DNA from: a virus
Direction: 5' to 3' (one strand)
Virus record (IMG/VR): IMGVR_UViG_3300028765_000021
Coordinates: 1 to 46,710 of that record
DNA length: 46,710 nt
Of the stretch, positions 711-44,381 are shown in pieces. Each line of letters starts with the position of its first letter. The first letter of the stretch is position 1. The position numbers were made by a program, and so were the translations under genes. A model generated the notes under the pieces. The model worked only from the letters and a program-made list of their open reading frames with translations. It was not told where the DNA came from and searched no databases.

Positions 711-718
711 TGGCTCAC

Positions 719-733
719 TTTACCACCATTCAG
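719..733. repeat. 15-bp sequence shared with 7121-7135
   Basis: TTTACCACCATTCAG occurs here, covering the last codons and stop (Glu-Trp-Trp-stop) of the small gene between terminase and portal, and again at 7121-7135 in the poorly coding region. The flanks differ. It may be a scar of a duplicated gene end or chance microhomology. Confidence 0.5.
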
Positions 734-2912: not shown

Positions 2913-3118
2913 TTCTTCATGCTCCGCACAGCGTCGCCAAGGCCTGGGAACTTCTTCGCAACCTTTGCGTCAATGCTTGCCCTCAATTGCGGACTCGGGC
3001 GTCCCATACGCTCCGCGGCTATACCGTGGCTCTTGTCTGGAATCGGATATGTGCGATTCGGTCCCGCGAATGCTGAATCGGGGAGTGCGTTACGCCGCGC
3101 TGCTGTCAATCTTGCCAT
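2909..3118 (-). CDS. Small conserved phage protein (DUF6582-like motif)
   Basis: The product has 69 residues. The core Leu-Pro-Asp-Ser-Ala-Phe-Ala, followed by Tyr-Pro-Ile-Pro-Asp-Lys-Ser-His and an Ala/Arg-rich helix, matches a motif common in small phage proteins and in the tails of some prohead proteins. That motif is thought to be structural; I cannot assign a reaction. It lies between the ribbon-helix-helix gene and the membrane peptide, with an ATGA overlap to the latter. Confidence 0.8.
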   Translation of the reverse strand: MARLTAARRNALPDSAFAGPNRTYPIPDKSHGIAAERMGRPSPQLRASIDAKVAKKFPGLGDAVRSMKK

Positions 3119-3185
3119 GCGTCACCTCAAGAGCATCATAACCGCTCCCGGTTTTGGTGGTAATTTTTTTGTGGCGCGCGTGGAG

Positions 3186-3458
3186 CTAGAATGGCGAGGC
3201 GTTTCTATGAAGTTTCCTCCAAGCCTCTTGTTCTACATCCCGAAGTCCCTTATACGTGCGGTCGCCATTCATGCAGCCCGACTCGTCATGCCCCGGCGAA
3301 CCACACTTCACACAACCATTCTTAGGCTCCTCGTGGATAATCACCGCGGTGCGCAGCGACGATAGGCAGAAGTCGCGAAGAGTCAGATCGCGCGACAATG
3401 CGAAAGCCTTCAGCGCCTTCACTAGATCAGGGTCAACGTTGCGAATATTTAGGTCCAT
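3186..3458 (-). CDS. Ribbon-helix-helix protein fused to a CCHC zinc knuckle
   Basis: Starting at ATG 3458 the product has 90 residues. Residues 1-40 fit a MetJ/Arc ribbon-helix-helix: a short strand with alternating polar residues, then two helices split by a Leu-Thr-Leu-Arg-Asp turn. Residues 49-62 form Cys-X2-Cys-X4-His-X4-Cys (C49, C52, H57, C62), the exact retroviral-type zinc-knuckle spacing. The combination suggests a DNA-binding regulator or a packaging accessory that also touches single-stranded nucleic acid. A longer frame starting at 3566 is open, but its extra N-terminus looks like noise. The ATG has no Shine-Dalgarno and sits six bases after a -10-like box, so the message may be leaderless. 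Confidence 0.8.
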   Translation of the reverse strand: MDLNIRNVDPDLVKALKAFALSRDLTLRDFCLSSLRTAVIIHEEPKNGCVKCGSPGHDESGCMNGDRTYKGLRDVEQEAWRKLHRNASPF

Positions 3459-3683
3459 GTGACAAGTGTAACACCGCCTCAGTTTTTGTCCAGAATTTTC
3501 TATGTCGCGGGCGTGACCATGTGCCGCCGACTCCCGCCACCAGTACCCCCGCCAGGGTCGGGCCACCCCGGCGCCTCGGCTTGGGACTCCAACCTTCCGC
3601 GCAAACGCAGTCGCGCCGCCGCTCAGTTCGAGCGTAGCTGTGGTGTTGAGTGGTGGAGGATTGGAGGAGCGAGGGTGGATTAG
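3459..3683. other. 225-base gap without a convincing gene
   Basis: Between the zinc-ribbon gene and the ribbon-helix-helix gene there is a GC-rich stretch. Frames through it give Arg/Pro-rich, low-quality proteins on either strand. Apart from the promoter candidate at 3465-3492 I see no gene, tRNA or strong hairpin. Confidence 0.6.
3465..3492 (-). promoter_or_regulatory. Candidate promoter for the ribbon-helix-helix gene
   Basis: Read on the minus strand: TGGACA, a 16-base spacer, then TACACT, then six bases to ATG 3458. The predicted start of transcription falls on the A of the ATG, which would give a leaderless mRNA. The call is by eye and no test was possible. Confidence 0.5.
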
Positions 3684-3941
3684 CTAGACAGGCTTGAGGC
3701 AGCGTGCGCAAACAGGCTTGTCGCCGTGCAGGACGCGTCCGGTGGCTCCGCAGTGCCGACAGGACCATTCAGCCTTGGCCGGCGCAGCAGCAGGCACGTG
3801 AGGCGTGCTGGGCTTTGCACCCTTATCCCATCTGCGAGATCGGCAGGCCCTGGACGCGCAATGCGACGGGTACAGCTCGGTCATAATCCACGAGTAGCCG
3901 CATTGATCACATCGCCACGCCGGAACGCTTGTCTTGCCCAT
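3684..3941 (-). CDS. Double zinc-ribbon protein
   Basis: From ATG 3941 the product has 85 residues and two cysteine clusters: C11-X2-C14 with C28 and C33, and C61-X2-C64 with C78-X2-C81. A Pro/Ala-rich linker (about residues 43-58) joins them. This is the layout of a two-domain zinc-binding protein, likely binding nucleic acid or protein. A TTG start ten codons earlier (3971) is open but would be encoded inside the perfect inverted repeat at 3942-3978, so I prefer ATG 3941. The gene follows the small terminase directly. Confidence 0.75.
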   Translation of the reverse strand: MGKTSVPAWRCDQCGYSWIMTELYPSHCASRACRSRRWDKGAKPSTPHVPAAAPAKAEWSCRHCGATGRVLHGDKPVCARCLKPV

Positions 3942-3978
3942 GTGAGCATTGTACACAGAGGGTGTGTACAATGCTCAC
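3942..3978. repeat. Perfect 15-bp inverted repeat with 7-base loop
   Basis: GTGAGCATTGTACAC (3942-3956) and its exact complement (3964-3978) flank a 7-base loop. The element lies between the stop of the small terminase gene (3983) and the ATG at 3941, and it takes up the whole place where a ribosome-binding site would be. It could be an operator (each arm holds TGTAC), an attenuator, or an RNA hairpin controlling translation of the zinc-ribbon gene. There is no T-run after it on either strand, so it is not a typical terminator. Confidence 0.85.
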
Positions 3979-3982
3979 ATTA

Positions 3983-4498
3983 CTACTCACCCAGCATAGC
4001 CGCCAGGCGCTCAGCAGCTGGCCCAGATACGCTCAGCGTGATACTCGATCCGGCATGCATCGCCTTAGCCGCATCCTGCATTCCAAGCAGCCCGGTGAGC
4101 TGATCTATAGCCTTTTGCTGCACCTTGTAATCAGGCGCGTCCGACTGCACAACCTCTTTGCCCTCAAGCGTTTGGTTCGCTCGGGCGTCCAAATGTTCAA
4201 CTATCTTATTTCCGATGCGATCAAGCGTAAGACCTTGCCTTTCAGCGATTTGCTGGAATCTTGCCCGCATCTCGTCTGGAGGGATCAATTTCCAAGGAGT
4301 TCTGCTTGCCCCGGAGCCGAAACCAGCCTCGAGCGCTGCTTGAGAGGCCGTCTTCCCATCGACTATGCCCTCAACGAGGCGTGTCTTTCGGAGTTCTAGG
4401 ACTGATTCGGGTCCTAATTTCTCTTCATCCATAGCATTCAGCATATCGTCGTAGCTCAAGCCATCCTCCTGATCGTTATATATATCTAGAGATAGCAT
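3983..4498 (-). CDS. terS: Terminase small subunit
   Basis: The 171-residue product has, at about residues 36-65, the pattern typical of small terminases: Leu-X3-Arg-Leu-Val then a Gly-Lys-Thr-Ala-Ser-Gln-Ala-Ala helix-turn-helix followed by Gly-Phe-Gly. This domain recognises the packaging site. A central helical part and a Gln/Leu-rich oligomerisation segment follow. It is the first gene of the leftward late block, consistent with the large terminase downstream. ATG 4498 has a weak AAAGG upstream; TTG 4459, with a strong AGGAGG five bases before it, is a serious alternative start giving 158 residues. Confidence 0.85.
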   Translation of the reverse strand: MLSLDIYNDQEDGLSYDDMLNAMDEEKLGPESVLELRKTRLVEGIVDGKTASQAALEAGFGSGASRTPWKLIPPDEMRARFQQIAERQGLTLDRIGNKIVEHLDARANQTLEGKEVVQSDAPDYKVQQKAIDQLTGLLGMQDAAKAMHAGSSITLSVSGPAAERLAAMLGE

Positions 4499-4512
4499 AA
4501 ACCTTTAAGAGC

Positions 4513-4540
4513 CTTGTACCCCTTGTATTCAACGTGTCAA
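4513..4540 (-). promoter_or_regulatory. Candidate late promoter, leftward
   Basis: On the minus strand TTGACA (4540-4535) is followed by 16 bases and TACAAG (4518-4513), 14 bases before ATG 4498. The -35 is perfect and the -10 is weak, which might mean activator dependence, as expected for a late promoter. It would drive the small terminase and the long virion block. Confidence 0.4.
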
Positions 4541-4593
4541 GCCCTTTCATATGTGCATGTTTGTGATAGTTTGATAACATTTGCATATTTTAC

Positions 4594-4622
4594 TTTACAT
4601 TGGAATACATATAGATTATAGT
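4594..4622 (+). promoter_or_regulatory. Strong sigma-70-like promoter, rightward
   Basis: TTTACA (4594-4599), a 17-base spacer, and TATAGT (4617-4622) lie in the most AT-rich part of the window. They end 26 bases before ATG 4649, which has AGGAG in front of it. Together with the leftward box at 4513-4540 this makes a divergent promoter region between the late block and the small-gene block. Confidence 0.7.
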
Positions 4623-4648
4623 GGATTCAGTTCAGAGGAGAAACGGCG

Positions 4649-4786
4649 ATGCAGACAGCGATCAGGAATCCTTATACCGGGCTGAGCAAGTCAGAACTTG
4701 AATCCAAACTGGATGATATGCTCCGGCGCCAATTTGAGCACACGGCTAATCTCCGCATCAACTTCGCCCGTTATGCAGTCCGCTAA
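4649..4786 (+). CDS. 45-residue first gene of the small-gene block
   Basis: ATG 4649 follows AGAGGAG by eight bases and lies just after the promoter at 4594-4622, so it would be the first protein made from that message. The product is charged, with a Ser-Glu-Leu-Glu-Ser-Lys-Leu-Asp-Asp-Met-Leu helix and a basic tail ending Ala-Val-Arg. No family is recognised. First-gene position and size are typical of early host-takeover or regulatory peptides, which is inference only. Confidence 0.65.
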   Translation: MQTAIRNPYTGLSKSELESKLDDMLRRQFEHTANLRINFARYAVR

Positions 4787-4871
4787 CGATTCGCAGTTCA
4801 ACCGCAGTGCAATATCACACTAAACGCGCACATGAACCGCTCACGGAGATGTGGGGCAGGAGATCTGGCAA

Positions 4872-5111
4872 ATGGAATACGGAATCTTGATTGCAACTGG
4901 AGCGGATGGCGTCTTTCAAATCCTTGGAGCGGTCTATTCACAGCTTGAAGCACTACAGCTTGCCGATGATTACATTCGGCTGGGACCTGATAACGATTAC
5001 CTCGCGCCGGAACGGTTCGAGATTCATCGCCGGGGAGACCGGGGAGGATACACACTCATCGAGCCTCTTACCGATGGGGAGTGGCTCATGGAAGGCAGGA
5101 AAGCACCCTAA
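4872..5111 (+). CDS. Hypothetical protein, 79 residues
   Basis: ATG 4872 is preceded by AGGAG at nine bases; the in-frame ATG at 4851 has no usable spacing. The product starts with a beta-like Tyr-Gly-Ile-Leu-Ile-Ala-Thr segment, then an amphipathic helix with Leu-Glu-Ala-Leu-Gln-Leu-Ala-Asp, then a Gly/Arg-rich turn and a hydrophilic tail. It looks like a small soluble alpha/beta protein. I do not recognise the family and propose no function. Confidence 0.65.
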   Translation: MEYGILIATGADGVFQILGAVYSQLEALQLADDYIRLGPDNDYLAPERFEIHRRGDRGGYTLIEPLTDGEWLMEGRKAP

Positions 5112-5165
5112 ACCACCACGGCTCCCAGATGCCTCACAGCGCGTCGGCAACATGAAAGGTACCCC

Positions 5166-5351
5166 ATGATCACCAAACCTCAGGAATGGATGACTGTAGC
5201 CCAATCCGCAGAGCTTTTGCAGCTCAATCCCATGACGATATTGCGCTGGATCAAGGCCGGAAAGCTGCCGAGGCGCAAGATCGGGAAAAGCTACCGACTC
5301 TCCAGGACGGAAATAACAACGTTTCTCAATAACAGGAAGGTGAAGCTATGA
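5166..5351 (+). CDS. Excisionase-type (MerR-like) helix-turn-helix protein
   Basis: The 61-residue product is almost only one winged-helix domain of the HTH_17/excisionase kind: a Trp-Met-Thr-Val-Ala-Gln-Ser-Ala-Glu-Leu-Leu start, Thr-Ile-Leu-Arg-Trp-Ile-Lys-Ala-Gly-Lys-Leu-Pro as recognition helix and turn, then Lys-Ser-Tyr-Arg-Leu. It ends in a basic tail. The GAAAGG box lies six bases before ATG 5166. Such proteins act as excisionases or small regulators. No integrase is present, so regulation of this block is the likelier job. The stop overlaps the next start (ATGA). Confidence 0.85.
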   Translation: MITKPQEWMTVAQSAELLQLNPMTILRWIKAGKLPRRKIGKSYRLSRTEITTFLNNRKVKL

Positions 5352-5533
5352 ATTGCGCGAATTGCGGTAAAGAAATCGAGCAGGCTGATTGGTTCGGCCT
5401 TTGGACGCACGTCACAAGCAAACTATACGGCTGCGGGCCCGGCGCCCAATACGGCGGCAAGATGGCCGAACCCACCCGCCCCGAAACTGAGGATGTAGTG
5501 GCCGCGACTAAGCTGGAGAAGGCAAGCCAATGA
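5348..5533 (+). CDS. Small protein with N-terminal zinc-ribbon half
   Basis: Of 61 residues, the first seven contain Cys-Ala-Asn-Cys, and one more Cys follows near residue 29, so a full four-ligand site is not evident. The C-terminal half is Pro/Thr/Glu-rich and likely disordered. It is translationally coupled to the excisionase-type gene by an ATGA overlap and to the next gene the same way. Function unknown. Confidence 0.65.
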   Translation: MNCANCGKEIEQADWFGLWTHVTSKLYGCGPGAQYGGKMAEPTRPETEDVVAATKLEKASQ

Positions 5534-5610
5534 ACACCAGGATGCAGTTTGACCCTTACGTGCTGGCCGTCCTCATCGTGGCCGGGCTCGTCATCGGATG
5601 GTGCCTATGA
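5530..5610 (+). CDS. 26-residue membrane peptide
   Basis: ATG 5530 overlaps the previous stop and its own TGA overlaps the next ATG. After about eight polar residues comes one hydrophobic segment of Val, Leu, Ile, Ala and Gly ending Trp-Cys-Leu. This is the size of very small inner-membrane phage peptides. The double stop-start overlap is the main argument that it is real. Confidence 0.5.
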   Translation: MNTRMQFDPYVLAVLIVAGLVIGWCL

Positions 5611-6026
5611 TTGATTTTCTCGCAGGCTCTTGTCGAAACGACAATAAGACCGAAGATGTGTATCCAGGTTCCGTCCTAACGGTTGTCTTTAGGCAGGGCG
5701 AAGATGGCTATATCGTCGCCGAATGCTTGCAGCTCCCGGGATGCATGTCACAGGGAAAGACAAAGGCAGAAGCAAACCGCAATATCAGGGACGCTATCCA
5801 GTCGGTGTTAATGGTTCGCCTGGGGCAGTTTCTGTCAGAATCTGTTCCATGTGATAGATCCGCTGATGATAGATGGGAACAGGAGACGTTCCGAGTCGAA
5901 AGTCCCGAACTTGTAGCCTGCGAGCGCTTTCCCTACGCGTCGCAAAACTCCTGCTCCGATATCCCGGCTTTCCTTAGCTCGGCTTTCAATAGATGCCGAT
6001 CTACGCTCCTAAGAGAAAGGGCATAA
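5607..6026 (+). CDS. Orphan HicB-like antitoxin-type protein
   Basis: Starting at ATG 5607 (ATGA overlap) the product has 139 residues. Residues 22-72 fit the HicB/UPF0150 fold: Leu-Thr-Val-Val-Phe then Asp-Gly-Tyr-Ile-Val-Ala-Glu-Cys, Leu-Pro-Gly-Cys, a Gln-Gly-Lys-Thr-Lys-Ala-Glu-Ala turn and the helix Asn-Ile-Arg-Asp-Ala-Ile. In toxin-antitoxin pairs HicB neutralises the HicA RNase and represses its own promoter. No HicA gene lies beside it. The last 65 residues are Cys/Ser/Arg-rich and have no recognised fold. It may be an antidote against a host HicA or a remnant. An ATG nine bases earlier (5598) is possible. Confidence 0.75.
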   Translation: MIDFLAGSCRNDNKTEDVYPGSVLTVVFRQGEDGYIVAECLQLPGCMSQGKTKAEANRNIRDAIQSVLMVRLGQFLSESVPCDRSADDRWEQETFRVESPELVACERFPYASQNSCSDIPAFLSSAFNRCRSTLLRERA

Positions 6027-6211
6027 TGAGGTTTGAATCTGGTTGGATTTCCGCATGTATGCACTGCCATAAACAGCTTACCGTATCCGCAGTCCCGTTC
6101 AGCGCTAAAATCACCTGTCCTGGGTGTGGAGCGGTCAACATTTTCCATAACTCCCAACATCCGCACCGCGTGGAAGAGATGTATCAATTGGAAGTACAAT
6201 CGGTGGAATGA
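6026..6211 (+). CDS. Small zinc-ribbon protein
   Basis: ATG 6026 shares a base with the previous TAA (TAATG), and AAAGG lies about five bases upstream. The 61-residue product has Cys-Met-His-Cys and Cys-Pro-Gly-Cys about twenty residues apart, a classic four-cysteine ribbon, and a Glu-rich tail. Such one-domain ribbons bind nucleic acid or partner proteins; no more specific role can be read. An ATG at 5993 adds eleven residues but loses the coupling. Confidence 0.7.
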   Translation: MRFESGWISACMHCHKQLTVSAVPFSAKITCPGCGAVNIFHNSQHPHRVEEMYQLEVQSVE

Positions 6212-6300
6212 TGGAAAAACCATCCAAAAGGTCATGGAAAGACCCAGTAATGCGTTATCTTTTCATTGCAGAACAGGCTATGAAAGGAACTTTGCATTAG
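6208..6300 (+). CDS. 30-residue peptide
   Basis: ATG 6208 overlaps the previous stop in an ATGA, with a second ATG directly after it. The product begins with basic residues (Lys-Pro-Ser-Lys-Arg-Ser) and then forms an amphipathic helix around Tyr-Leu-Phe-Ile-Ala-Glu-Gln-Ala. Evidence is limited to the overlap and position; no family is recognised. Confidence 0.4.
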   Translation: MMEKPSKRSWKDPVMRYLFIAEQAMKGTLH

Positions 6301-6304
6301 CCCG

Positions 6305-6622
6305 ATGCCGATTCATCGCAAGACCGGAGACTATTTCCAGTCAACCACAACCGGGGAGACGGTCCGCGCTTTCGTTCCCTTTCCATTGCCGCCCGCCCCG
6401 CCGCTCGAACGTTGCAAGACAGGAAAAACCATGAAAGACATCACCTCTGAGACCCCGCCAGATCCGTTTTACAACCAAACCATCTACCACGAGGAGGCAA
6501 TATGCAAGCGGATGAGATGCAACTGGCAATTTCCTATGCTGACCTCGCGAACTCGCTCACCTTTCGCGATTTACTCAAGTTTCATTCTGGAGAATGTGAG
6601 CGGCTTGAACTCGCTGCCTTAA
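6305..6622 (+). pseudogene. Fragment of a Fic-family N-terminus
   Basis: The first 36 codons encode Gly-Asp-Tyr, Thr-Gly-Glu-Thr-Val-Arg-Ala-Phe-Val-Pro and Pro-Leu-Pro-Pro-Ala-Pro-Pro-Leu-Glu, the distinctive start of Fic/DOC AMP-transferase proteins (Fic_N region). Everything after that, including the catalytic His-Pro-Phe-X-Asp/Glu-Gly-Asn-Gly motif, is missing. The frame runs on without meaning into the next gene. I read it as a remnant of a captured host gene, or a very small protein that kept only the Fic N-arm. Confidence 0.6.
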
Positions 6623-6885
6623 ATGCTCCGGCGACTGACTTTGAGGCCTGCCGTTCGGCGATCATTGCCTGGCAGCAGCAGCGACTCGTTGTGAAAACCC
6701 TTGAGAAGATGCAACTCCAGCAGCAGCGCCTTGGCGCCATGTCGCAAGATGCCCATGAGCGGGATGAAACTCAGATCATCGTGGCGACCTTGAACGCTCT
6801 GGCGCAGATTGGCGCACTGAATGAGGTGCTTGGTATCGCGCGGGATGCAGAAATCAAGGCATCGCAGATTTTAGAAGGCCAATAG
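6502..6885 (+). CDS. Chimera: N-terminus of a small virion gene fused to the portal C-terminus
   Basis: The 127-residue product has two parts. Residues 1-68 match the protein at 44078-44380 (same Met-Gln-X-Asp-Glu-Met-Gln-Leu start, long identical runs). Residues 69-127 match the last 59 residues of the portal almost perfectly. It keeps the portal stop and has a good site (GAGGAG, five to six bases) before ATG 6502. The junction sits at a GAG/GAGAAGATG microhomology present in both parents. The orientation is opposite to the virion genes and the order of the parts is reversed. It could be inert, or it could make a portal-tail mimic. The bases are about as similar to the parents as the two portal alleles are to each other. 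Confidence 0.85.
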   Translation: MQADEMQLAISYADLANSLTFRDLLKFHSGECERLELAALNAPATDFEACRSAIIAWQQQRLVVKTLEKMQLQQQRLGAMSQDAHERDETQIIVATLNALAQIGALNEVLGIARDAEIKASQILEGQ

Positions 6886-6952
6886 TGTACACTTTCTTCG
6901 GTTTGGCCGCGACCACTAGCGCATTTAGTTGATATATTTACGTTTAAATGGT

Positions 6953-6982
6953 GCTTCGAAAGGCTTCGAAGGAGGCTTCGAA
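6953..6982. repeat. Three tandem GCTTCGAA octamers
   Basis: GCTTCGAA occurs at 6953-6960, 6963-6970 and 6975-6982 with 2- and 4-base gaps. The core TTCGAA is palindromic. The last gap contains the GGAG of the ribosome-binding site for ATG 6984. The array might be a protein-binding site or an RNA element controlling that small gene. Confidence 0.7.
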
Positions 6983-6983
6983 C

Positions 6984-7118
6984 ATGGCAGGGGAGATTCA
7001 AAAAGAAACCGCCCCGGCTAAGAGGCGGTCCAGAGAGTTTGCGGGGTGTCGGTTGTTTCGCTATCGGCCAAGAGTCACGAAAACAGTGGAGTGGTTAGAC
7101 GGACCACCCCGCAAATAA
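6984..7118 (+). CDS. 44-residue basic peptide
   Basis: ATG 6984 has AAGGAGG eight to nine bases upstream, one of the best sites in this block. The product is strongly basic (Lys-Arg-Arg-Ser-Arg, Arg-Tyr-Arg-Pro-Arg) and has a single Cys. It could bind nucleic acid. It may equally be a chance frame at the end of the rightward message. Part of its sequence forms an 11-bp inverted repeat (7038-7048 with 7105-7115). Confidence 0.4.
   Translation: MAGEIQKETAPAKRRSREFAGCRLFRYRPRVTKTVEWLDGPPRK
7038..7115. repeat. 11-bp inverted repeat with long loop
   Basis: TTTGCGGGGTG at 7038-7048 is the exact complement of 7105-7115, with 56 bases between. It lies where the rightward small-gene block and the leftward methylase block converge. 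It could be a bidirectional folding element, though neither arm is followed by a T-run. Confidence 0.4.
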
Positions 7119-7624
7119 AGTTTACCACCATTCAGATTCGCCATGCTACACTTTTGTTGCCAAGAGCTTATGAAAACAGTTCCCATGACAATTCGTATCT
7201 CGTCAAGGTTCCCGCTTTCGTGCGCCTGGGCCGCTCTCCGGCATGGTGACTTCCTCCCCGGAGACTCTGGAGCGTACAGGAGCGAGCAGCCAGGTCCAGA
7301 CCGCACAAGCATTGCAGGTTCAATCTCAGGTATAGGGGCCTGAAAGGGATCAGACCGGCATGGCGCCCGGTCGATTGTCTTGGTTTTGAAAGTCTGTTCC
7401 ATCGGGGTGATGGTTTGCCTGGCTCCGGGCTGGTAGTCGATCCAGCAAAGGGCAATACGTCCAGGTCCATTAAGGCATCAACAAAAACAGACGCCATAAG
7501 AACCCAAGAGAGCTGCAAGAACAGCACAGACAATCCCCTAGATGCCGAGGGGAATTGCCCCCGGTGTGTCTTTCCTGTGACCCGCTCCGGGGAATGGAAC
7601 GGCACATTTGGAACCGTTCTGGCC
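7119..7624. other. About 500 bases without a convincing gene
   Basis: Several frames are open here on both strands. A leftward frame (stop at 7168, possible GTG 7605) gives an Arg/Ser/Leu-rich product. Another (7402 to 7061) has stretches that look natural but no start site, and one short leftward peptide has a good ribosome-binding site but only 13 codons. Natural-looking segments switch frame, which suggests a decayed gene downstream of the DUF1064 gene. It also holds the second copy of the 15-bp repeat (7121-7135). Confidence 0.5.
7121..7135. repeat. 15-bp sequence shared with 719-733
   Basis: Second copy of TTTACCACCATTCAG. In the minus-strand frame it again reads Glu-Trp-Trp-stop, but a stop codon lies a few codons upstream, so only a gene end is left. 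Confidence 0.5.
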
Positions 7625-7993
7625 TTAGACTTCTTCGATGGTGATGCCCAACAGGAGAGCGGCAAGACGCTTCTTGAGACGGTAGATGGCCGTCTTGTAT
7701 CCCTTGGCGTCAACCACGTGCGGAGTGCCGTCAAGGTCCACGTAATAGAAGTCTGCCACGTAGACAACCGGCCTGAGCTTCCCGTCTCCGGGCACCAGGG
7801 TAATCCGCATCTGCTCCTGATAGTCTTTGATCTTTCCGGCGCGGGCGAGAGCCTGATAGTTGACCGCCGCTGCCGCCTCATGCTTGGATGCGTAGCCGTT
7901 GGAACGCACGGCGCCATACTTGTTTTCCCGAGCCGGGGAGCCACCCTCGACAAAGGCTGTCCACGCTGCCCGCTCACCCATGCGCTCTCTCAT
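7625..7993 (-). CDS. DUF1064 family protein (nuclease-like fold)
   Basis: The 122-residue product has the DUF1064 marks: Asn-Lys-Tyr-Gly-Ala-Val-Arg, then Tyr-Ala-Ser-Lys-His-Glu-Ala-Ala, a Gly-Lys-Ile-Lys-Asp-Tyr-Gln-Glu-Gln segment, Tyr-Val-Ala-Asp-Phe-Tyr-Tyr, Val-Val-Asp-Ala-Lys-Gly and a Tyr-Arg-Leu-Lys-Lys-Arg-Leu helix. The Asp-Phe-Tyr and Asp-Ala-Lys-Gly pieces resemble a PD-(D/E)XK nuclease core, and the family is often placed near recombination genes. It is coupled to the HNH gene by an ATGA overlap. Whether it cuts DNA here is not shown. Confidence 0.85.
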   Translation of the reverse strand: MRERMGERAAWTAFVEGGSPARENKYGAVRSNGYASKHEAAAAVNYQALARAGKIKDYQEQMRITLVPGDGKLRPVVYVADFYYVDLDGTPHVVDAKGYKTAIYRLKKRLAALLLGITIEEV

Positions 7994-8286
7994 CGCCCCT
8001 CAGTATGGAAGCGCATGTGGCACTCATGGCATCCTGTCTCCACGTTGTCCAGAACGTCCTCACCGCCGGCCCCACGGCTGCGCTTGTGCATCATGTCATA
8101 CTTCCGGGGATGCCAGTCGGGAACCGAGTCGGTGACTGGCCGGCCACAGCAAACGCAGGTCCCACCATCACGCTTGAAGCAGGCTTCCCGTAGTTTGGAG
8201 AGCGCATCGCCCTTGAGCCGGATGATGGTTGGCTTTGGGAACATTCCGCCCCAGGCTGACTTTGTTCGCATCTTGCGGGGGCTCAC
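7990..8286 (-). CDS. HNH endonuclease
   Basis: The 98-residue product carries a compact HNH nuclease: Cys-Val-Cys-Cys near residue 44, the Asp-Met-Met-His-Lys-Arg-Ser-Arg-Gly-Ala-Gly-Gly first catalytic His region, Asp-Asn-Val-Glu-Thr (the N), and Cys-His-Glu-Cys-His-Met-Arg-Phe-His (zinc and last His). Start is GTG 8286, whose GTGA overlaps the methyltransferase stop. A phage HNH beside a methyltransferase may act in packaging, in homing, or as a nuclease from which methylation protects the phage. The operon order makes the last idea attractive, but it is inference. Confidence 0.9.
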   Translation of the reverse strand: MSPRKMRTKSAWGGMFPKPTIIRLKGDALSKLREACFKRDGGTCVCCGRPVTDSVPDWHPRKYDMMHKRSRGAGGEDVLDNVETGCHECHMRFHTEGR

Positions 8287-9170
8287 AGAGAAACCGGATA
8301 GAAGCTATGCGCCAGACAGCTCGATAGCGCCAGTGGGATTTTGGCGATCATGGCGGATGCGGCCTTGCGGGAGTTGGACTTGCTGCCGTGCCGTGCCGCG
8401 CCGTCCTGAAACCACGCATCGCCTTTGCCGTTCTCGCGCATCCCGCCGATACCCGGCTGCTTCACCGCATCGCTCTGGAACGACCCGCCGCTGCCATCTA
8501 AGCGGAAGCCGGGAACCTTCTCTGCATTGGCACCGCGCTCTTTGCTGTCTGCGATTGCAAACCATGAGCCGGTACCGTGCGCGGTGCCATCTGGGTTGCG
8601 CTTCTGCGCCCGAACTGGTGCAATCCCCCGCCCCAGTATCTTCCCCTCCACAATCGCCACCACGCGGTTGTCGACCATGCCCACGTCGCCCCAAAGGTAA
8701 AAGCTGCCATAGTTAGCTTTCGCGCGTCCCACCCACTTCTGCGCCCCGCGAACGTTCTCAATCACCATCGGAATGTAGCGGCCGGCAGCTTCGCAAGCCT
8801 CACGCTGGATGCGGTAGCAGGCATTGAATAGCTCGTTCAACTGCTCGATAGTGCGCGATCCGCGGTAGCCAGCCGAAAACTGGCCCTGCCCCTGTAACGC
8901 TCTCGCGATCTGCTTGCCTCTCTCCCACGGCATCGCCATGTAGCTGTACTCCTGGCACGGCGGCGAGAACACCAGACACGCCGCATCCTTGAGCAGACTG
9001 CCGTGGACCTGGCGCATGTCGCGGAGGATCAGTTCACCGGGATAGCCGCCTGAGCCGTAGTCGTGCGCCTCAATGTCGAAGCCGATACATCGATACCCGG
9101 CCGCGAGGAATCCTTCGCTCCATCCCCCTAAACCGCAGTAACCGTCATAGACAATCGGCGCTTCGCTCAT
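8283..9170 (-). CDS. C5-cytosine DNA methyltransferase
   Basis: Start ATG 9170 has GGAGGGG five bases before it; the frame is open further upstream but the extra part is not protein-like. The 295-residue enzyme shows motif I (Asp-Gly-Tyr-Cys-Gly-Leu-Gly-Gly, 9-16), motif II (Gly-Phe-Asp-Ile-Glu, 30-34), the nucleophile motif Ser-Pro-Pro-Cys-Gln (Cys72) and Ile-Glu-Asn-Val (motif VI, about 138-141). It would transfer methyl from S-adenosylmethionine to C5 of cytosine. The C-terminal third is short and Gly/Lys-rich, so target recognition is not predictable. Likely role: protecting phage DNA from host restriction or from the adjacent HNH nuclease. Confidence 0.9.
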   Translation of the reverse strand: MSEAPIVYDGYCGLGGWSEGFLAAGYRCIGFDIEAHDYGSGGYPGELILRDMRQVHGSLLKDAACLVFSPPCQEYSYMAMPWERGKQIARALQGQGQFSAGYRGSRTIEQLNELFNACYRIQREACEAAGRYIPMVIENVRGAQKWVGRAKANYGSFYLWGDVGMVDNRVVAIVEGKILGRGIAPVRAQKRNPDGTAHGTGSWFAIADSKERGANAEKVPGFRLDGSGGSFQSDAVKQPGIGGMRENGKGDAWFQDGAARHGSKSNSRKAASAMIAKIPLALSSCLAHSFYPVSL

Positions 9171-9208
9171 GCTTTCCCCTCCTTGGTTGCGCCTTACTTC
9201 ATGCCATG

Positions 9209-9526
9209 CTATTCCAAGATCACGGCTGTCACCGGGTATCCACGTCCTTCTTCGGTGCAGTCCATCACGCCCCAGTCCCCGCCCCATGCTTTCGCCTCGG
9301 ATGGACTCATCGGCCTGAAACGCATGTGCTTCACGTCACTCACGGTCAAGCGAATAAGCACGTCTTTCGGAGTGTCAAGTCCGGGCGCAAGTTGAATGTC
9401 AGTGATAAACTTCGCCCTGTCCAGATGGCCATTATCGTAGATGCAACTTTCATCATCGGATGCGTTGTATCCCCACCCTATCTCGCGTATTCCCTTACGA
9501 CTCTTTCGCATCGCTTTCTCGCTCAT
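9209..9526 (-). CDS. Hypothetical protein, 105 residues
   Basis: ATG 9526 has GAGGAGG six bases upstream. The product is a mixed soluble protein with a basic start (Met-Ser-Glu-Lys-Ala-Met-Arg-Lys-Ser-Arg-Lys) and a C-terminal Met-Arg-Phe-Arg-Pro-Met-Ser-Pro then Trp-Gly-Gly-Asp-Trp-Gly stretch. It sits between the repressor-like gene and the methyltransferase. I do not recognise the family. Confidence 0.7.
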   Translation of the reverse strand: MSEKAMRKSRKGIREIGWGYNASDDESCIYDNGHLDRAKFITDIQLAPGLDTPKDVLIRLTVSDVKHMRFRPMSPSEAKAWGGDWGVMDCTEEGRGYPVTAVILE

Positions 9527-9536
9527 GCCGTCCTCC

Positions 9537-9794
9537 TCATGCCTCTCGGTGCTCGTCCTCTACCAGCCCATCGACAAGCTGGATGCCGGTTATCTCGCGG
9601 AACACCTGTTTGAACTTCGGTCCGGGGCTCAACTTCTGATTCGTCATGGCATCGCAATAGGTTCGGGTAATCTCGATGCCGTGCCCCGAAAGCCACCGCT
9701 GGAAGGTGGTTGATGACATGCCGCGCTCAGTGAGCCAGTTTACTAGCACCCGCTGCGCTTCACCGTGAGTGTAGGAACGCCGTTGCTTCTTCAT
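9537..9794 (-). CDS. Helix-turn-helix regulator, repressor-like, predicted leaderless
   Basis: From ATG 9794 the product has 85 residues. It begins Met-Lys-Lys-Gln-Arg-Arg, and residues of about 15-60 fit an XRE-like bundle: Val-Leu-Val-Asn-Trp-Leu-Thr-Glu, Ser-Ser-Thr-Thr-Phe-Gln-Arg-Trp-Leu-Ser, Tyr-Cys-Asp-Ala-Met-Thr-Asn-Gln-Lys-Leu-Ser-Pro, then Phe-Lys-Gln-Val-Phe. It is the first gene of the leftward methylase block and faces the ERF operon across a shared promoter region with one dyad. There is no Shine-Dalgarno, and the -10 box ends six bases before ATG. This is the arrangement of a lysogeny repressor or a Cro-like switch protein, with lambda cI as the known leaderless precedent. Confidence 0.75.
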   Translation of the reverse strand: MKKQRRSYTHGEAQRVLVNWLTERGMSSTTFQRWLSGHGIEITRTYCDAMTNQKLSPGPKFKQVFREITGIQLVDGLVEDEHREA

Positions 9795-9800
9795 GGACCT

Positions 9801-9829
9801 ATATAAACACACCACCAAAATAAAAGCAA
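9801..9829 (-). promoter_or_regulatory. Leftward promoter of the repressor-like gene
   Basis: On the minus strand TTGCTT (9829-9824), 17 bases, TTATAT (9806-9801), then six bases to ATG 9794. The start of transcription should fall on or next to the ATG. The -35 box overlaps the left half of the dyad at 9826-9841. Confidence 0.6.
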
Positions 9830-9841
9830 GAAACTTCTTGC
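9826..9841. promoter_or_regulatory. 16-bp dyad operator between divergent promoters
   Basis: GCAAGAA-AC-TTCTTGC is a perfect 7-bp dyad around two bases. It overlaps both the leftward -35 box (9824-9829) and the rightward -35 box (9838-9843). A dimeric helix-turn-helix protein bound here would block both promoters. The adjacent repressor-like protein is the obvious candidate binder, but this is inference. Confidence 0.75.
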
Positions 9842-9866
9842 AATCCCACGCGGCTCATGTTTTAAT
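9838..9866 (+). promoter_or_regulatory. Rightward promoter of the recombination/replication block
   Basis: TTGCAA (9838-9843), a 17-base spacer and TTTAAT (9861-9866), 22 bases before ATG 9889, which has GGGAG seven bases upstream. It is the only good promoter ahead of the ERF-helicase genes and is overlapped by the dyad at 9826-9841. Confidence 0.7.
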
Positions 9867-9888
9867 CCGTAAAGAAGGGAGTTCGGCA

Positions 9889-10170
9889 ATGAAGTTTATC
9901 AAGGATGATGGAACAATCGAAGAGGGTACGCCGCTCACAGACAACACCGCAAAGCTGCGGGATGAGTTGGAGGCGTATCTGCATACGGTGGTGTGCTTCA
10001 ACATCTACCACGGCCCCTACGGCAGGAAGAAGTGTGCGATGGCGGCAAAATTCCTCGCCCTCACCGTCAACAACAATCAGGACGATCCGGGAGACTACGC
10101 CTTTGCCGTCGAAGCGGAGAACTTGCGGCTGAACCCGCCACCGGAGACGATCGACGATCAAGACTCCTGA
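9889..10170 (+). CDS. Hypothetical protein, first gene of the ERF block
   Basis: Starting at ATG 9889 the product has 93 residues. It is acidic, with an N-terminal Lys-Asp-Asp-Gly-Thr-Ile-Glu-Glu-Gly stretch, a helix Leu-Arg-Asp-Glu-Leu-Glu-Ala-Tyr-Leu, Tyr-Gly-Arg-Lys-Lys-Cys and a Pro/Asp-rich tail. The frame is open to 9793, but that part overlaps the promoters. As the first gene from the switch promoter it holds the position of a Cro-like or early regulatory gene, yet no DNA-binding fold is visible. Confidence 0.75.
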   Translation: MKFIKDDGTIEEGTPLTDNTAKLRDELEAYLHTVVCFNIYHGPYGRKKCAMAAKFLALTVNNNQDDPGDYAFAVEAENLRLNPPPETIDDQDS

Positions 10171-10177
10171 AACTGCC

Positions 10178-10195
10178 GGCGTGGACGTTCACGCC
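10178..10195 (+). terminator. Weak hairpin after the first gene of the ERF block
   Basis: GGCGTG and CACGCC pair around a 6-base loop, eight bases after the stop at 10170. No T-run follows, so at best it is an attenuator or RNA processing point in the 136-base gap before the ERF gene, where I see no other feature. Confidence 0.3.
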
Positions 10196-10306
10196 TAACC
10201 ACATTCCCGCCCCCGTAAAGGTGGAAGCCTAGCTTGGAACGTAGCGGAGACCGGCTCCTTGCACAAGTCACTGGGCAGGCGGGATTCACTTCAAGAGGGG
10301 AAACAC

Positions 10307-11272
10307 ATGAGCACAGATTTGGTAACTCTTCAACCGGAGCGCGACATAACTCCGATGGACATGCTTCGGATCGCCTTGACCCAAGGCGCAGACATCGACA
10401 AACTCCAGCAGCTTATGGAGTTCAAAGAGCGGTGGGAAGCGAACGAGGCTCGCAAGGAGTTCGACAACGCGATGGCCGAATTCAAGTCAACCGTTCTCAG
10501 GATCGCCAAGAATCAAACGGCGAAGTTTGAGACACAGAAGGGCACGACTCAGTACGCCTACGCGACACTGGACAACGTGAACGCAACCATCATCCCAGCA
10601 TTGAGCGCAGTTGGCATTAACCATCGGTGGAAGGTCGAGCAGAATGCCACCGAAATATGTGTCACCTGCGTCCTCAAGCACCGGAAGGGTCACAGTGAAG
10701 AAACCACCCTCCGGTCATTGGCTGACAGTTCCGGTGGAAAGAATGCTATCCAGTCCATCGGGTCGGCAGTCACATACCTCGAACGTTACACGCTGCTTGC
10801 CGCCACAGGCATGGCTGTAGGCGGAACAGACGATGATGGGAACAACTCAAGCCCTCACCCTCAAGCCGTCACCCCTGCGTCGGTCATGCCGAAAGTGCAG
10901 CCTCCGGCTAGTGCAATATCGCACGACGACTCCGAGCCCGTAATTACGCCCCGCAGTCGCAAGGGTGCTCAACCCTCCACCCAAGCCCCATCGACGCAGC
11001 CAGCAGACTCCCAGGGCCCGGAGCAAAACCTTTCCGGTGTCTTTCCCGAGGGCGAGGTCCTGCAACCTGGGAAGTTTGAACTTCCCATCAGCAAGCCGCA
11101 ATCGAATCGCTACTTCGCCATCATGAAGTCAGTATCGGTTACGGATGAGCAGTCGGCTCGGCAGTTGGCAAGTCTCGGCTGGAATGGAAGCCGGGATGAG
11201 ATGCCGAAGCGGATTTACAACCAGGCAATCGATCTGCTCGATCCTGAATTTCGCTTTCACCAAAACAAGTAA
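10307..11272 (+). CDS. ERF-family single-strand annealing protein
   Basis: ATG 10307 follows GAGGGG by six bases; an in-frame ATG at 10259 lacks a site. In the 321-residue product the first 190 residues fit the ERF superfamily: a helical Gln-Gln-Leu-Met-Glu-Phe-Lys-Glu-Arg-Trp start, a Tyr-Ala-Tyr-Ala-Thr-Leu-Asp-Asn-Val core, then Ile-Gln-Ser-Ile-Gly-Ser-Ala-Val-Thr-Tyr-Leu-Glu-Arg-Tyr. The middle (about 200-260) is Pro/Ser/Gln-rich and disordered, and a short C-terminal helical domain follows. ERF proteins anneal single strands during phage recombination, working with the exonuclease encoded three genes downstream. Confidence 0.92.
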   Translation: MSTDLVTLQPERDITPMDMLRIALTQGADIDKLQQLMEFKERWEANEARKEFDNAMAEFKSTVLRIAKNQTAKFETQKGTTQYAYATLDNVNATIIPALSAVGINHRWKVEQNATEICVTCVLKHRKGHSEETTLRSLADSSGGKNAIQSIGSAVTYLERYTLLAATGMAVGGTDDDGNNSSPHPQAVTPASVMPKVQPPASAISHDDSEPVITPRSRKGAQPSTQAPSTQPADSQGPEQNLSGVFPEGEVLQPGKFELPISKPQSNRYFAIMKSVSVTDEQSARQLASLGWNGSRDEMPKRIYNQAIDLLDPEFRFHQNK

Positions 11273-11286
11273 AGGAAAATCCGGCA

Positions 11287-11520
11287 ATGAAATACAAGGC
11301 AGTTGAATCTTCGCAGATTGAGGCCGTGGCACACGACCCCGAAACCAACACGCTTGGCATCCGGTTCAAGTCCAAGAAGGGACCGTCCGAGTACCACTAC
11401 CAGAACGTCTCAGACAAGCTCCACGAGGGGCTGGTGGGCGCGGTCAGCGTCGGCCAATTCTTCGCTGAGCATATCAAGAACGATCCAGTCAGCTTTCCGT
11501 TTACCAAGGTTCCATTCTGA
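11287..11520 (+). CDS. KTSC-domain protein
   Basis: The 77-residue product is one KTSC domain: a Glu-Ser-Ser-Gln-Ile start, Thr-Leu-Gly-Ile-Arg-Phe strand, Tyr-His-Tyr-Gln-Asn-Val-Ser, and Ala-Val-Ser-Val-Gly-Gln-Phe-Phe. This family is common in phages, sometimes fused to lysyl-tRNA synthetase, and of unclear activity. It lies between ERF and a second KTSC domain. GGAAAATCCGGCA precedes ATG 11287. Confidence 0.9.
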   Translation: MKYKAVESSQIEAVAHDPETNTLGIRFKSKKGPSEYHYQNVSDKLHEGLVGAVSVGQFFAEHIKNDPVSFPFTKVPF

Positions 11521-11525
11521 GGCAG

Positions 11526-12581
11526 ATGCACGGCGTCCGAGACCCCAACCATCAACTCATCGCCGTAGGGTGGGAAGACGGGACTCTGCGGTGCCGATGG
11601 CGGAAAGGCGAAGGGGAGCACACTGGAGTTCCAGAGGATGTGTTTCTATCTCTGCGGCGTGTTCCCTTCGCCTACAGCTACTACCAAAAAGCCATCAAGG
11701 GAAAGTTCCCTTACACCAAGATCGAAGACCCACAGGAGGAACCAAATGGAAGCACCGGAACCAACATACAAAACACTGCGGGACGAGTTTGCGATGGTGG
11801 CGTTGGCAGCACTCATGCAGAACTATCGGGGGGATACGGACGGTATATACGCAGCAGCGTACCGGATAGCCGATGCAATGCTGGCAGCACGGGAGGCGGA
11901 CTGATGGAATTCTTTCGCGCAGAAGACGGCCTCACGTTTGAACCCAATGGCCACAAGTACCATCTCCAAGGCAAGCCACTCATCAGCCTGACGCAAATCC
12001 TCGGTGCGGCTGGCCTCGTGGACTACTCAGCCGTCGCTCCTGACGTGCTGGCAAACAAGGCGGCGTTCGGTACTCGGGTTCACGAGTACACCGCGTTGCA
12101 TGACCAGGACGACCTGGAGCCGGAAGACTGGACGAAGCTGATCAACCATCCGAAGTACGGGCCGCGTCTCAAGGGCTGGGTGCAGTTCTGCGAAGACTTT
12201 CACTTCACTCCCGACCCCAACTGGATTGAGGAGCCTTGCGCGGTTCGCGTGAACGGCATGACCTACGCCATGACGATTGACCGCTTCGGCTTTCTCGGAC
12301 CCAAGGACGCCAGCGGTGCAGCGATCCCAGCCGTAGTCGAGTTGAAAACGTGCTGTGACCGGGAGCCAAGCCACCAAATCCAGACTGCCGGCCAAGCCAT
12401 TCCGTTCCGGGGCGACGGTTCGGTGTCGTGCAAGCGCATGGCGGTGTACCTCTTAGACAAGCCGAACGGTGTTGGGAAGTTCTACTTCGCGCAAGAGCAT
12501 GAGGACCGGCAGGACGAGAAAATCTTCTTGGCTGCGTTGATGTTGACGCAGTTCCGCATTAACCAGAAACTCTTGAAATGA
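11526..12581 (+). CDS. KTSC domain continuous with a RecB/Cas4-type exonuclease
   Basis: One open frame of 351 codons holds three parts. Residues 1-68 are a second KTSC domain (Gly-Thr-Leu-Arg-Cys-Arg-Trp, Val-Pro-Glu-Asp-Val-Phe, Tyr-Tyr-Gln-Lys-Ala-Ile). Residues about 74-126 are a Gly/Ser/Thr-rich linker that is the shifted translation of a nested gene. Residues 127-351 are a PD-(D/E)XK exonuclease: His60, Asp126 (Thr-Ile-Asp-Arg-Phe) and Glu146-Leu-Lys148, counted from ATG 11904. That ATG overlaps the nested gene stop in TGATG, so the nuclease can also be made alone (225 residues). The nuclease would supply 3' strands for ERF. Either a true fusion or a KTSC gene that lost its stop. Confidence 0.85.
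   Translation: MHGVRDPNHQLIAVGWEDGTLRCRWRKGEGEHTGVPEDVFLSLRRVPFAYSYYQKAIKGKFPYTKIEDPQEEPNGSTGTNIQNTAGRVCDGGVGSTHAELSGGYGRYIRSSVPDSRCNAGSTGGGLMEFFRAEDGLTFEPNGHKYHLQGKPLISLTQILGAAGLVDYSAVAPDVLANKAAFGTRVHEYTALHDQDDLEPEDWTKLINHPKYGPRLKGWVQFCEDFHFTPDPNWIEEPCAVRVNGMTYAMTIDRFGFLGPKDASGAAIPAVVELKTCCDREPSHQIQTAGQAIPFRGDGSVSCKRMAVYLLDKPNGVGKFYFAQEHEDRQDEKIFLAALMLTQFRINQKLLK
11746..11904 (+). CDS. 52-residue gene nested in the KTSC-nuclease frame
   Basis: ATG 11746 has a perfect AGGAGG six bases upstream and lies in the +1 frame relative to the 351-codon frame around it. The product resembles the common phage family with Thr-Leu-Arg-Asp-Glu-Phe-Ala-Met then an Ala-rich helix and Ala-Tyr-Arg-Ile-Ala-Asp-Ala-Met-Leu. 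Its TGA overlaps the nuclease ATG. The real protein-like frame here is this one; the surrounding frame is low complexity. Confidence 0.85.
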   Translation: MEAPEPTYKTLRDEFAMVALAALMQNYRGDTDGIYAAAYRIADAMLAAREAD

Positions 12582-13588
12582 ACACGATTACCAACCGCGA
12601 ATGGATTAAGTGGTACGAGACGGTGGGCCGGAAGCCGATAGCTCACCTGTCGAAAGAGCAGCGCAAAAGAATCGTTCGCGGGTGCCAAGGGAAAGTGGTT
12701 TACTCCAGCCACGAAGAAGCGAAACCAGTAGTTGATTCTCTGCCCCTGATAGACGGGATGTTTCCCCGCTCTTATCGCTGCCAACTCTGCCACGGAATCC
12801 ATATCGGCAACAGCGCAACACGAAAGGCTGAAACCATGTCCACATCACTTGTCTCCATCGAAGCGCAGGCGACAAGCTTGCAAGTTGACTTGAAGAATCA
12901 GATTGAATCCTTTTTCAAGTCACTCCCCGAACTCAAGTCACTCGTCTCCATGAGCGAGGCTCTTGTTGTCCAGTCCAAGGCCATCAAGGTCGGGCGCAAC
13001 GACCCTGACGATTCCAACTACCGCGCGGCCACCGAGCAGACTCAGGCGCTCAAGTCCGTGGTGGATGAGATCACCGAACTCTTTGAACCGTTCGCGGCTG
13101 GACTGTTCAAGGCGCACAGGACGGTGACTAAGCTCCGGGGCGACAACCTGGAGGCGGCCGAGGGCGAAGTGAAGCGCCTCAAGACCGAGCGTGAGGGATT
13201 CGCCGCGGAACAGGAGCGGATGCGCCGTGAAGCCGCGCAGAAGGCCCAGCAAGAGGCTTACGAGCGGGAACAGACCCGATTGATGGAGGAAGCCCGTCAA
13301 GTCGCCGCTACGGGCAACGCAGCCGCCGCAGAGGAGATTCTGGAAGAGGCTGTAAATCTCGAAGTTGCTCCGGTGGTGTTGCCGTCAACCGTTCCAGAGA
13401 TTCAGGGAACGTCCTTTCGGACAAAGTGGAACTGGGAGATGGTGGATGCTACCAAGCTCAAGGCTGAATTCATCACGCCGAAGGAAAAGGAAATCGGCCA
13501 GTTGGTGAGGTCGATGAACAAGGCGGCGGAAACTCTCGTGGGCTCCGGCGCAATCCGGGTGTGGGAATCAAAGATCATTGTGGGGTAG
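12578..13588 (+). CDS. Zinc-ribbon domain joined to a coiled-coil recombination-block protein
   Basis: The 336-residue frame starts in an ATGA overlap with the nuclease. Residues 1-80 look like a stand-alone small phage protein: Gly-Cys-Gln-Gly-Lys-Val-Val-Tyr, then Tyr-Arg-Cys-Gln-Leu-Cys-His-Gly-Ile-His-Ile-Gly. Residues 87-336 form a second unit with its own ATG (12836, AAAGG eight to nine bases before it), with a long charged coiled coil (about 180-265, Glu/Arg/Ala/Gln-rich) and a C-terminal globular end. The second unit resembles DUF1351-type proteins that sit near annealing proteins. No stop separates the two, so they are either fused or made from two starts. Confidence 0.75.
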   Translation: MNTITNREWIKWYETVGRKPIAHLSKEQRKRIVRGCQGKVVYSSHEEAKPVVDSLPLIDGMFPRSYRCQLCHGIHIGNSATRKAETMSTSLVSIEAQATSLQVDLKNQIESFFKSLPELKSLVSMSEALVVQSKAIKVGRNDPDDSNYRAATEQTQALKSVVDEITELFEPFAAGLFKAHRTVTKLRGDNLEAAEGEVKRLKTEREGFAAEQERMRREAAQKAQQEAYEREQTRLMEEARQVAATGNAAAAEEILEEAVNLEVAPVVLPSTVPEIQGTSFRTKWNWEMVDATKLKAEFITPKEKEIGQLVRSMNKAAETLVGSGAIRVWESKIIVG

Positions 13589-13590
13589 GC

Positions 13591-15240
13591 GTGGAAGATC
13601 GGGGTTATCAGTCGGATTGTCTACTGGCGAGTGTCAAGCACCGTCGAGCTGGCCTAAACCGCCAACTCATAGTGATGGCGACCGGACTCGGCAAAACACG
13701 GGTGGCATCTCGCGTTAGGGAGTATCACGGATTCCACAAGCGGGGGATGTTTTTAGTTCACATGGAAACGCTGGCGGTTCAGGGATCGATGGCGTTCCAG
13801 AAAGCCAACCCGCAACTCCGCATCGGGGTAGAAATGGCAGGGTCATGGGTCGATATGGATAGCCTGTATCCTCCAGACATAATCATCGCGTCGGTGCCGA
13901 CATTAGGGAGAAAGGGATCGGATCGCCTCCGGCGTTTCGATCCCTTCGACTTCGACTTCATCATCCAAGACGAGGCGCACATTGGCATCTCAGATTCCTT
14001 CAAGCGGGTCTATGACCACTTCGGCCTACTTGAGCCCAACCCTGACGGGCTGCTGTTTCTCGGCATCACCGCCACGCCGAACCGCTCAGACGGCAAGGGC
14101 TTGCGGGAACTGTTCGATGTGATCGTCTTTGACATGGGCATCCAGAAGGGTATAGCCGACGGCTGGCTGTGCGATCTGGTGGGATACCGGGTGGACGGCA
14201 ACGCGAAGCTCGACGGCATCAAGACCCGGCTCGGAGACTTCGCGCAGGATGAGCTAGAGAAGTCTGTCAACACTCCAGAGCGGAACGCCATCATCGTAAA
14301 AGAGTGGTACAAGGTTGCCTACGGGAAACGGACCCTAGCGTTCACGGTGGACGTGCAACACGCGCTCGATCTGGCGGCGGCGTTCACGGCCCATGGAGAG
14401 CCAGCGGAAGCGGTTTGGGGAGACGACCCGCAGCGGCATGAAAAGATTCGCCGGCATAAGACCGGGGAGTACAAAGTCCTTTGCAACTGCAACGTCCTTG
14501 CCATTGGCTACGACGATCCTGAAATCCAGTGCATCATCTCAGCGGCGCCGACTAAAAGCGAACTGCGCTATGTCCAGCAGATCGGGCGCGGCACTCGCAT
14601 CTGCGACGGGAAAGAAAACTGCATCGTGATTGATGTCGTGGACAACTGTAAGAAGCACTCCCTGACGACCATCTCTACCCTGCTCGGACTGCCAAAAGAC
14701 TTGGACATGAAAGGCGAGTCGTACTCGAAGGCGAAGCAAAAACTCGACCGGATGGCGGCTGAGTTCCCAACGGCCAACGTGCAGGACATCAAGAGCCTCG
14801 ACCAACTCAAGAGCATCGCAGAGAACATCTCCCTTTTCCAAGTCAACTACCCTCCAGAGATTGCGCGATTGAGTGAACTGGCGTGGCGGAAATCTACGGA
14901 TGGGTACATGCTGGCAGTGGGTCGGGATCTCGTGCAGGTGGCTCAAGACTTGCGCGGCGACTGGGCAGTGAAGGGGAAGGTAGGGGAAGCGGTAGCAGAC
15001 TTCACTTCGCAGAACTTGCCGGGAGCGATGAGCCTTGCAGACCGGTGGGTGCTCGACAATGGAGGCGTGAAGCCGTTGCTGGCGCGGGATGCACGATGGA
15101 GAACCAGACCAGACCCGCCGACAGAAAAGCAGTTGGGACTCGCGAGAATACTTCGGATAACAGTTCCTCCCGGCACCACCAAAGCGCAATTATCTAACGC
15201 GATTGATATCAAGAAAGCACAGATGAGGGTGAACGCATGA
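13591..15240 (+). CDS. SF2 DEAD/DEAH-type helicase
   Basis: GTG 13591 lies three bases after the previous stop. The 549-residue product has motif I Ala-Thr-Gly-Leu-Gly-Lys-Thr (30-36), motif II Asp-Glu-Ala-His (127-130), motif III Thr-Ala-Thr (160-162) and motif VI Gln-Gln-Ile-Gly-Arg-Gly-Thr-Arg (329-336). The two RecA domains take up about 350 residues, and a C-terminal 200-residue part ends in a basic helix. It resembles UvsW/RAD25-like phage helicases that unwind branched DNA. With no replicative helicase or polymerase in sight, it probably acts in recombination-dependent replication. The stop overlaps the next ATG. Confidence 0.93.
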   Translation: MEDRGYQSDCLLASVKHRRAGLNRQLIVMATGLGKTRVASRVREYHGFHKRGMFLVHMETLAVQGSMAFQKANPQLRIGVEMAGSWVDMDSLYPPDIIIASVPTLGRKGSDRLRRFDPFDFDFIIQDEAHIGISDSFKRVYDHFGLLEPNPDGLLFLGITATPNRSDGKGLRELFDVIVFDMGIQKGIADGWLCDLVGYRVDGNAKLDGIKTRLGDFAQDELEKSVNTPERNAIIVKEWYKVAYGKRTLAFTVDVQHALDLAAAFTAHGEPAEAVWGDDPQRHEKIRRHKTGEYKVLCNCNVLAIGYDDPEIQCIISAAPTKSELRYVQQIGRGTRICDGKENCIVIDVVDNCKKHSLTTISTLLGLPKDLDMKGESYSKAKQKLDRMAAEFPTANVQDIKSLDQLKSIAENISLFQVNYPPEIARLSELAWRKSTDGYMLAVGRDLVQVAQDLRGDWAVKGKVGEAVADFTSQNLPGAMSLADRWVLDNGGVKPLLARDARWRTRPDPPTEKQLGLARILRITVPPGTTKAQLSNAIDIKKAQMRVNA

Positions 15241-19346: not shown

Positions 19347-19347
19347 G

Positions 19348-44380: not shown

Positions 44381-44381
44381 T

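Follow-up and report, generated by a model that had tools for sequence, protein, structure and literature searches.

The divergent gene junction at 9794-9889 of this phage DNA raises the question of whether it holds a lysogeny switch or a control region for early genes. An earlier note had described it as a compact divergent switch, with one dyad over the -35 boxes of a leftward promoter (repressor-like gene) and of a rightward promoter (recombination and replication genes), and had read it as a single-operator decision circuit in a phage with no visible integrase or partition genes, whose prophage state, if any, would be unusual. Our analysis of the whole 46,710-nucleotide stretch (hereafter the window, G000) points to a bidirectional early-gene control region, in which the 85-aa product of the first leftward gene (HTH85) would act at the dyad as a Cro-like or C-protein-like early autoregulator, and we give this reading a probability of about 0.5. 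The divergent control region, the HTH-like protein and the single candidate operator of the earlier description are retained here, but a role in a lysogeny decision and an unusual prophage state found no support.

The window ends (1-698 and 46013-46710) repeat at 90.4% identity over 698 bp and carry the portal N-terminus twice, with substitutions, so the genome looks like an essentially complete circle of ~46.0 kb derived from more than one strain. Portal sequence also appears at 6499-6885, where the chimeric ORF 6502-6885, on the opposite strand, resembles 44173-44383 (76%) in its first half and, in its second, the C-terminal part of the portal gene at 44585-44766 (92%). No annotated phage matched the first 25 kb of the window at the DNA level, and the terminase found them only as distant matches (22-26% identity among the matches listed). 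Terminase relatives at 86-92% identity include two complete genomes, G007, whose ends overlap exactly over 127 bp, and G010, where the overlap is 140 bp at 98%. The terminase large subunit homologue of another contig (L027, 10001-12547) is one 848-aa ORF with ~260 extra residues near residue 340, a possible intein. Just downstream of gene 3983-4498 of the window, small-terminase-like by position and with no family match, lies an inverted repeat (3940-3980) whose 18-bp arms pair perfectly around a 5-nt loop, and no perfect repeat of comparable length was present in the 16 relatives' loci scanned.

Leftward from the junction, on the same strand as the packaging and structural genes, the operon runs in the order HTH85 (9537-9794, minus strand), a 105-aa protein (9209-9526, minus; 52% identity in G005, near the HTH85 homologue of that genome), a C5 DNA methyltransferase-like protein (8283-9170, minus; phrog_363, 2.8e-10; Pfam DNA_methylase, 0.0014, below cutoff), an HNH endonuclease (7990-8286, minus; Pfam HNH, 4.5e-05; phrog HNH families) and a DUF1064 or Holliday-junction-resolvase-like protein (7625-7993, minus; Pfam DUF1064, 1.5e-08; phrog_190, 2.1e-21). 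No lysogeny gene or cassette was recognisable in this operon. The rightward operon starts at 9889 with a 93-aa ORF (9889-10170, plus strand), followed by ERF, exonuclease, helicase and primase genes; it includes the ERF single-strand annealing recombinase (10307-11272, plus; Pfam ERF, 2.1e-16; phrog_155, 2.4e-33) and a KTSC-domain protein (11287-11520, plus; Pfam KTSC, 7.9e-16). HTH85 was the only candidate repressor found at the junction, and the 93-aa protein opposite it had no convincing family match. Elsewhere in the window, a HicB-like antitoxin-type protein is encoded at 5598-6026, with no HicA partner identified, and a single 770-aa ORF (15237-17549) joins an SNF2-like helicase to an N6/N4 DNA methyltransferase.

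HTH85 is a small protein with a probable lambda-repressor-type HTH fold. Its AlphaFold2 model has four helices (10-24, 28-37, 44-51 and 59-69) with a mean pLDDT of 76-77, with or without homologues. The best PDB matches of the model were HigA, TP901-1 CI, HipB, SinR, C.Esp1396I and XRE/POU domains, with C.AhdI also among the structural neighbours; none was individually significant (no Foldseek E below 0.2; VIA-align Z of at most 7.0), and since nearly all of them are of this one fold the comparison leans strongly towards it. Searching solved structures by sequence gave nothing useful, HTH85 matched no family profile of Pfam, PHROGs or NCBIfam, and PF01381 was not found in the window.

Two outward-facing promoter-like elements occupy the junction, their -35 boxes 8 bp apart. 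The leftward one (9801-9829, minus) consists of TTGCTT (9829-9824), a 17-bp spacer and TTATAT (9806-9801), followed after 6 nt by the ATG of HTH85, and the rightward one (9838-9866, plus) of TTGCAA (9838-9843), a 17-bp spacer and TTTAAT (9861-9866), with a Shine-Dalgarno-like AGAAGGGAG (9873-9881, plus), read from the sequence, preceding the ATG at 9889. The claim of two divergent promoters holds for the boxes and their 17-bp spacing, but a sigma-70 consensus scan of 9500-10400 returned no promoters; neither outward element passes, the rightward one matching 9/12 consensus positions and failing the rule of an A at -10 position 2, so that both are weak by consensus. The -10-like hexamer 6 nt from the ATG predicts a leaderless HTH85 transcript. 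The same TTGnnn-17-hexamer-6-ATG geometry precedes the HTH gene in the window (TTGCTT/TTATAT) and in two genomes with HTH85 homologues, G015 (TTGCCT/TATATT) and G005 (TTGACA/GACGAT), and in all three it implies a leaderless HTH transcript. Across five genomes, only ~17 of the 7,726 ATGs have this geometry, a rarity that is indicative and carries no formal P value, since the pattern was set after the three cases had been seen and was widened to admit GACGAT. In the direction corresponding to the rightward element, G015 has TTGCAA-17-TACCTT.

Between these elements lies a perfect dyad, GCAAGAA-AC-TTCTTGC (9826-9841, assigned to neither strand; 7-bp arms, 2-bp centre), which re-reading recovered exactly in sequence and position as first described. 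The TTGC of each -35-like box forms one end of the dyad, which thus overlaps both boxes as had been claimed. This overlap raises a real, if doubtful, possibility, namely that the dyad is a by-product of the promoters, most of the palindrome coming from two outward -35 boxes with TTGC at their start, and that HTH85 acts elsewhere or at another site. Four of the seven arm bases are -35 sequence, and because the boxes supply them the evidence from the dyad shrinks to three matching pairs. The window holds a chance number of perfect dyads of this kind (13 whose arms are 7 or longer and whose gap does not exceed 4, against 14.6 expected under a Markov model), by which count the one at 9826-9841 is unexceptional, and even when one mismatch is allowed the dyad occurs only once in the window. 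The identical sequence occurs only in L002 and L003, two contigs of the window's own strain, and is absent from the homologous HTH loci examined. An extended form of the pattern had 15 matches in viral contigs, two in the window's own strain and 13 in unrelated, lower-GC contigs, where by ORF calls it lies mostly inside an ORF and in 0 of 13 between divergent genes. On the other side, the inner three pairs match too (~1 in 64), shuffles of the intergenic stretch gave a dyad as good in 2-3% of cases, and its placement falls exactly over both -35 boxes before a probable HTH gene. Footprinting by conservation was tried and set aside, L002 and L003 offering no variation and the other homologues having different predicted recognition helices and no common dyad. 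Given the chance-level count, the three informative pairs and the lack of a second copy, we regard the dyad as a reasonable candidate operator rather than a demonstrated one; it is weak evidence when taken alone, and the control region is better supported than the dyad itself.

The dyad could also be read on the minus strand, where it is followed by TTTTATTTT, as an intrinsic terminator against stray leftward transcription. It is terminator-like by scan, and folded alone its hairpin has -7.0 to -7.6 kcal/mol, but terminator-like matches occur at chance (20 against 18.9 expected in 1-20000, and 2 against 0.9 locally), the element is placed ahead of where leftward transcription is predicted to begin, and just upstream there is no leftward gene that would need a stop, all of which makes this function extremely improbable.

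Homologues of HTH85 were found in three viral contigs, at 56% (G003, L004), 51% (G005, L013) and 43% identity (G015, L053); a fourth candidate, L005, was rejected because stop codons interrupt the matching frame. The C-terminal block GPKF-K-F-EITGI-LVDGL is kept among the homologues, and the predicted recognition helix varies across the family (ITRTYCDAM, ITRQYCQQL, ASKQYIHQL and VSTQYLNDV), so different operators are expected. G015, a 55-kb genome that is probably complete as its ends overlap by an exact 123 bp, repeats the layout of the window. Its HTH gene is divergent from genes for a 133-aa protein, ERF, a homologue of the 93-aa protein (L053:4130-4405; 40% identity in the alignment, tblastn 9.5e-10) and a KTSC protein (44% identity), with helicase and primase homologues further along. 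A palindrome, TATTTTAAAATA, lies between its two -35 boxes, and a 6-bp arm of this kind arises in 14% of shuffles, which is not significant. In G003 and G005, the HTH gene instead sits between co-directional genes of one operon and adjoins a gene that resembles a VRR-NUC nuclease by reading of its translation; the divergent arrangement is thus one context of this gene among others.

HTH85 is absent from the complete close relatives G007 and G010 (terminase 88-92% identical), and these appear to have DNA-binding genes unrelated to HTH85 at a divergent early junction. One arm of that region is headed in G010 by an XRE-like protein of 64 aa that matches HTH_3 weakly and in G007 by a 61-aa protein that reads as ribbon-helix-helix-like. 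The G007 gene (L035, ~8630-8760) has a promoter-like TTGCAT-17-TATTAT-7-ATG facing away from a TTGACA promoter, and an 8-bp inverted repeat, AATAATAG/CTATTATT, crosses it (5% of shuffles).

Among known regulators, the controller (C) proteins of type II restriction-modification systems, such as C.Csp231I and C.Esp1396I, offer one comparison. C proteins are autoregulating, both activate and repress, commonly have leaderless transcripts and mostly use paired operators (PMC4824078). HTH85 resembles them as a small HTH protein, first in its operon, with a palindrome in its own promoter, a methyltransferase gene nearby and a predicted leaderless transcript. This likeness allows a reading in which HTH85 mainly autoregulates its own operon and any rightward effect is secondary, and the C5 methyltransferase-like, HNH and DUF1064 genes of that operon, the presence of C.Esp1396I and C.AhdI among the structural neighbours, the leaderless transcripts and own-promoter palindromes often seen with C genes (PMC4824078), and a C5 methyltransferase-like gene close to the HTH gene in G005 as well are consistent with it. 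It is nevertheless unlikely, as no restriction endonuclease partner was identified in the window beside the methyltransferase-like and HNH genes, some homologues have no methyltransferase operon behind them (the G015 HTH gene stands alone), and a single dyad contrasts with the paired sites that most C proteins use (PMC4824078).

The lambdoid switches are a second comparison. In lambda, OR comprises three operators and CI is built of two domains. The junction is like the Cro/CI region in having a candidate operator between divergent promoter-like elements, with a repressor-like gene opposite recombination and replication genes; it differs in its one dyad, its one 85-aa protein and the lack of an integrase. 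A lone palindromic operator has a precedent in the telomere phage PY54. Its immB region has one of 16 bp and gives cI and cro mRNAs that are both leaderless; the cI and cro repressors are separate, the authors of that work infer that Cro represses cI and not cro, and the prophage is a linear plasmid (PMC4488713). The window shares with PY54 one 16-bp palindrome beside a small HTH repressor gene, an absence of chromosomal integration that is probable here, and a leaderless mRNA, shown in PY54 and predicted here, but it has one repressor-like gene, no protelomerase match and a dyad that overlaps both -35 boxes. SA97 was considered as a precedent and dropped, having an integrase but no cI/Cro (PMC4632378).

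The lifestyle of the phage bears on whether such a junction could decide lysogeny. As the earlier note had claimed, this phage has no integrase and no partition genes that profile searches could find. Tyrosine integrase (PF00589) was found neither in the window nor in the records of ten relatives, including the complete G007, G010 and G015, and serine recombinase (PF00239) neither in the window nor in the searched relatives other than G015 (both searches at E up to 1, with positive controls); eight other G015 ORFs, including larger unexplained ones, had no integrase match in PHROGs. ParA (PF13614) and ParB (PF02195) gave no match in the window, G007 or G010, protelomerase (PF16684) none in these three, G005 or G003, and a search of 84,980 host genomes found nothing related to HTH85 or the terminase. 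These negatives are only modest because the scans rest on short conserved peptides. The portal had no plasmid match. The absence of integrase is as well explained by a phage that is lytic or does not integrate as by an exotic prophage.

The proposal that the junction is a true lysogeny switch, in a temperate phage maintained as a plasmid or by pseudolysogeny, draws on the divergent HTH gene opposite early genes, on the G015 HTH gene, which stands by itself on the plus strand with modules of the minus strand on either side, on the single-operator switch of PY54 with its linear-plasmid prophage (PMC4488713), and on an excisionase-family HTH_17 protein at 5166-5351 (Pfam, 4.2e-14; TIGR01764, 1.3e-11) in this integrase-less genome, which has a weak homologue in G015 at 28302-28451. 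We consider it quite unlikely. The absences of ParA/ParB and protelomerase speak against it, and the search of host genomes and plasmids revealed no prophage or plasmid form; the leftward operon has no lysogeny cassette, relatives lack the HTH gene, have another in its place or carry it among co-directional genes, and at 85 aa HTH85 is too small for the oligomerisation/cleavage domain of lambda CI. Less likely again is that the module common to distant phages, a leaderless small HTH gene divergent from ERF, 9889-like and KTSC genes, works as a minimal one-repressor, one-operator decision circuit in phages that persist without integrase, partition genes or protelomerase. Lysogeny is unsupported rather than disproved, and the phage is probably lytic, or at least non-integrating.

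Returning to the early-gene control region, we infer the following course. HTH85 would be made early, probably from a leaderless mRNA beginning at its own ATG, and as it accumulates its dimer would most likely bind the 16-bp dyad between the -35 boxes. Bound there, it could block RNA polymerase leftward as well as rightward, which would hold down its own operon (the 105-aa, C5 methyltransferase-like, HNH and DUF1064 genes) and turn off the ERF/replication operon, and the circuit would then serve as a Cro-like or C-protein-like device for timing and homeostasis.

A divergent repressor-like gene and one dyad are insufficient to show a temperate life, and binding and reporter tests on the HTH85 region would cost little. 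Lastly, these data bring to light a small HTH-like protein family without a database profile, placed at early control regions of uncultured phages, whose HTH gene has a predicted leaderless promoter that is kept across 43-51% protein identity.
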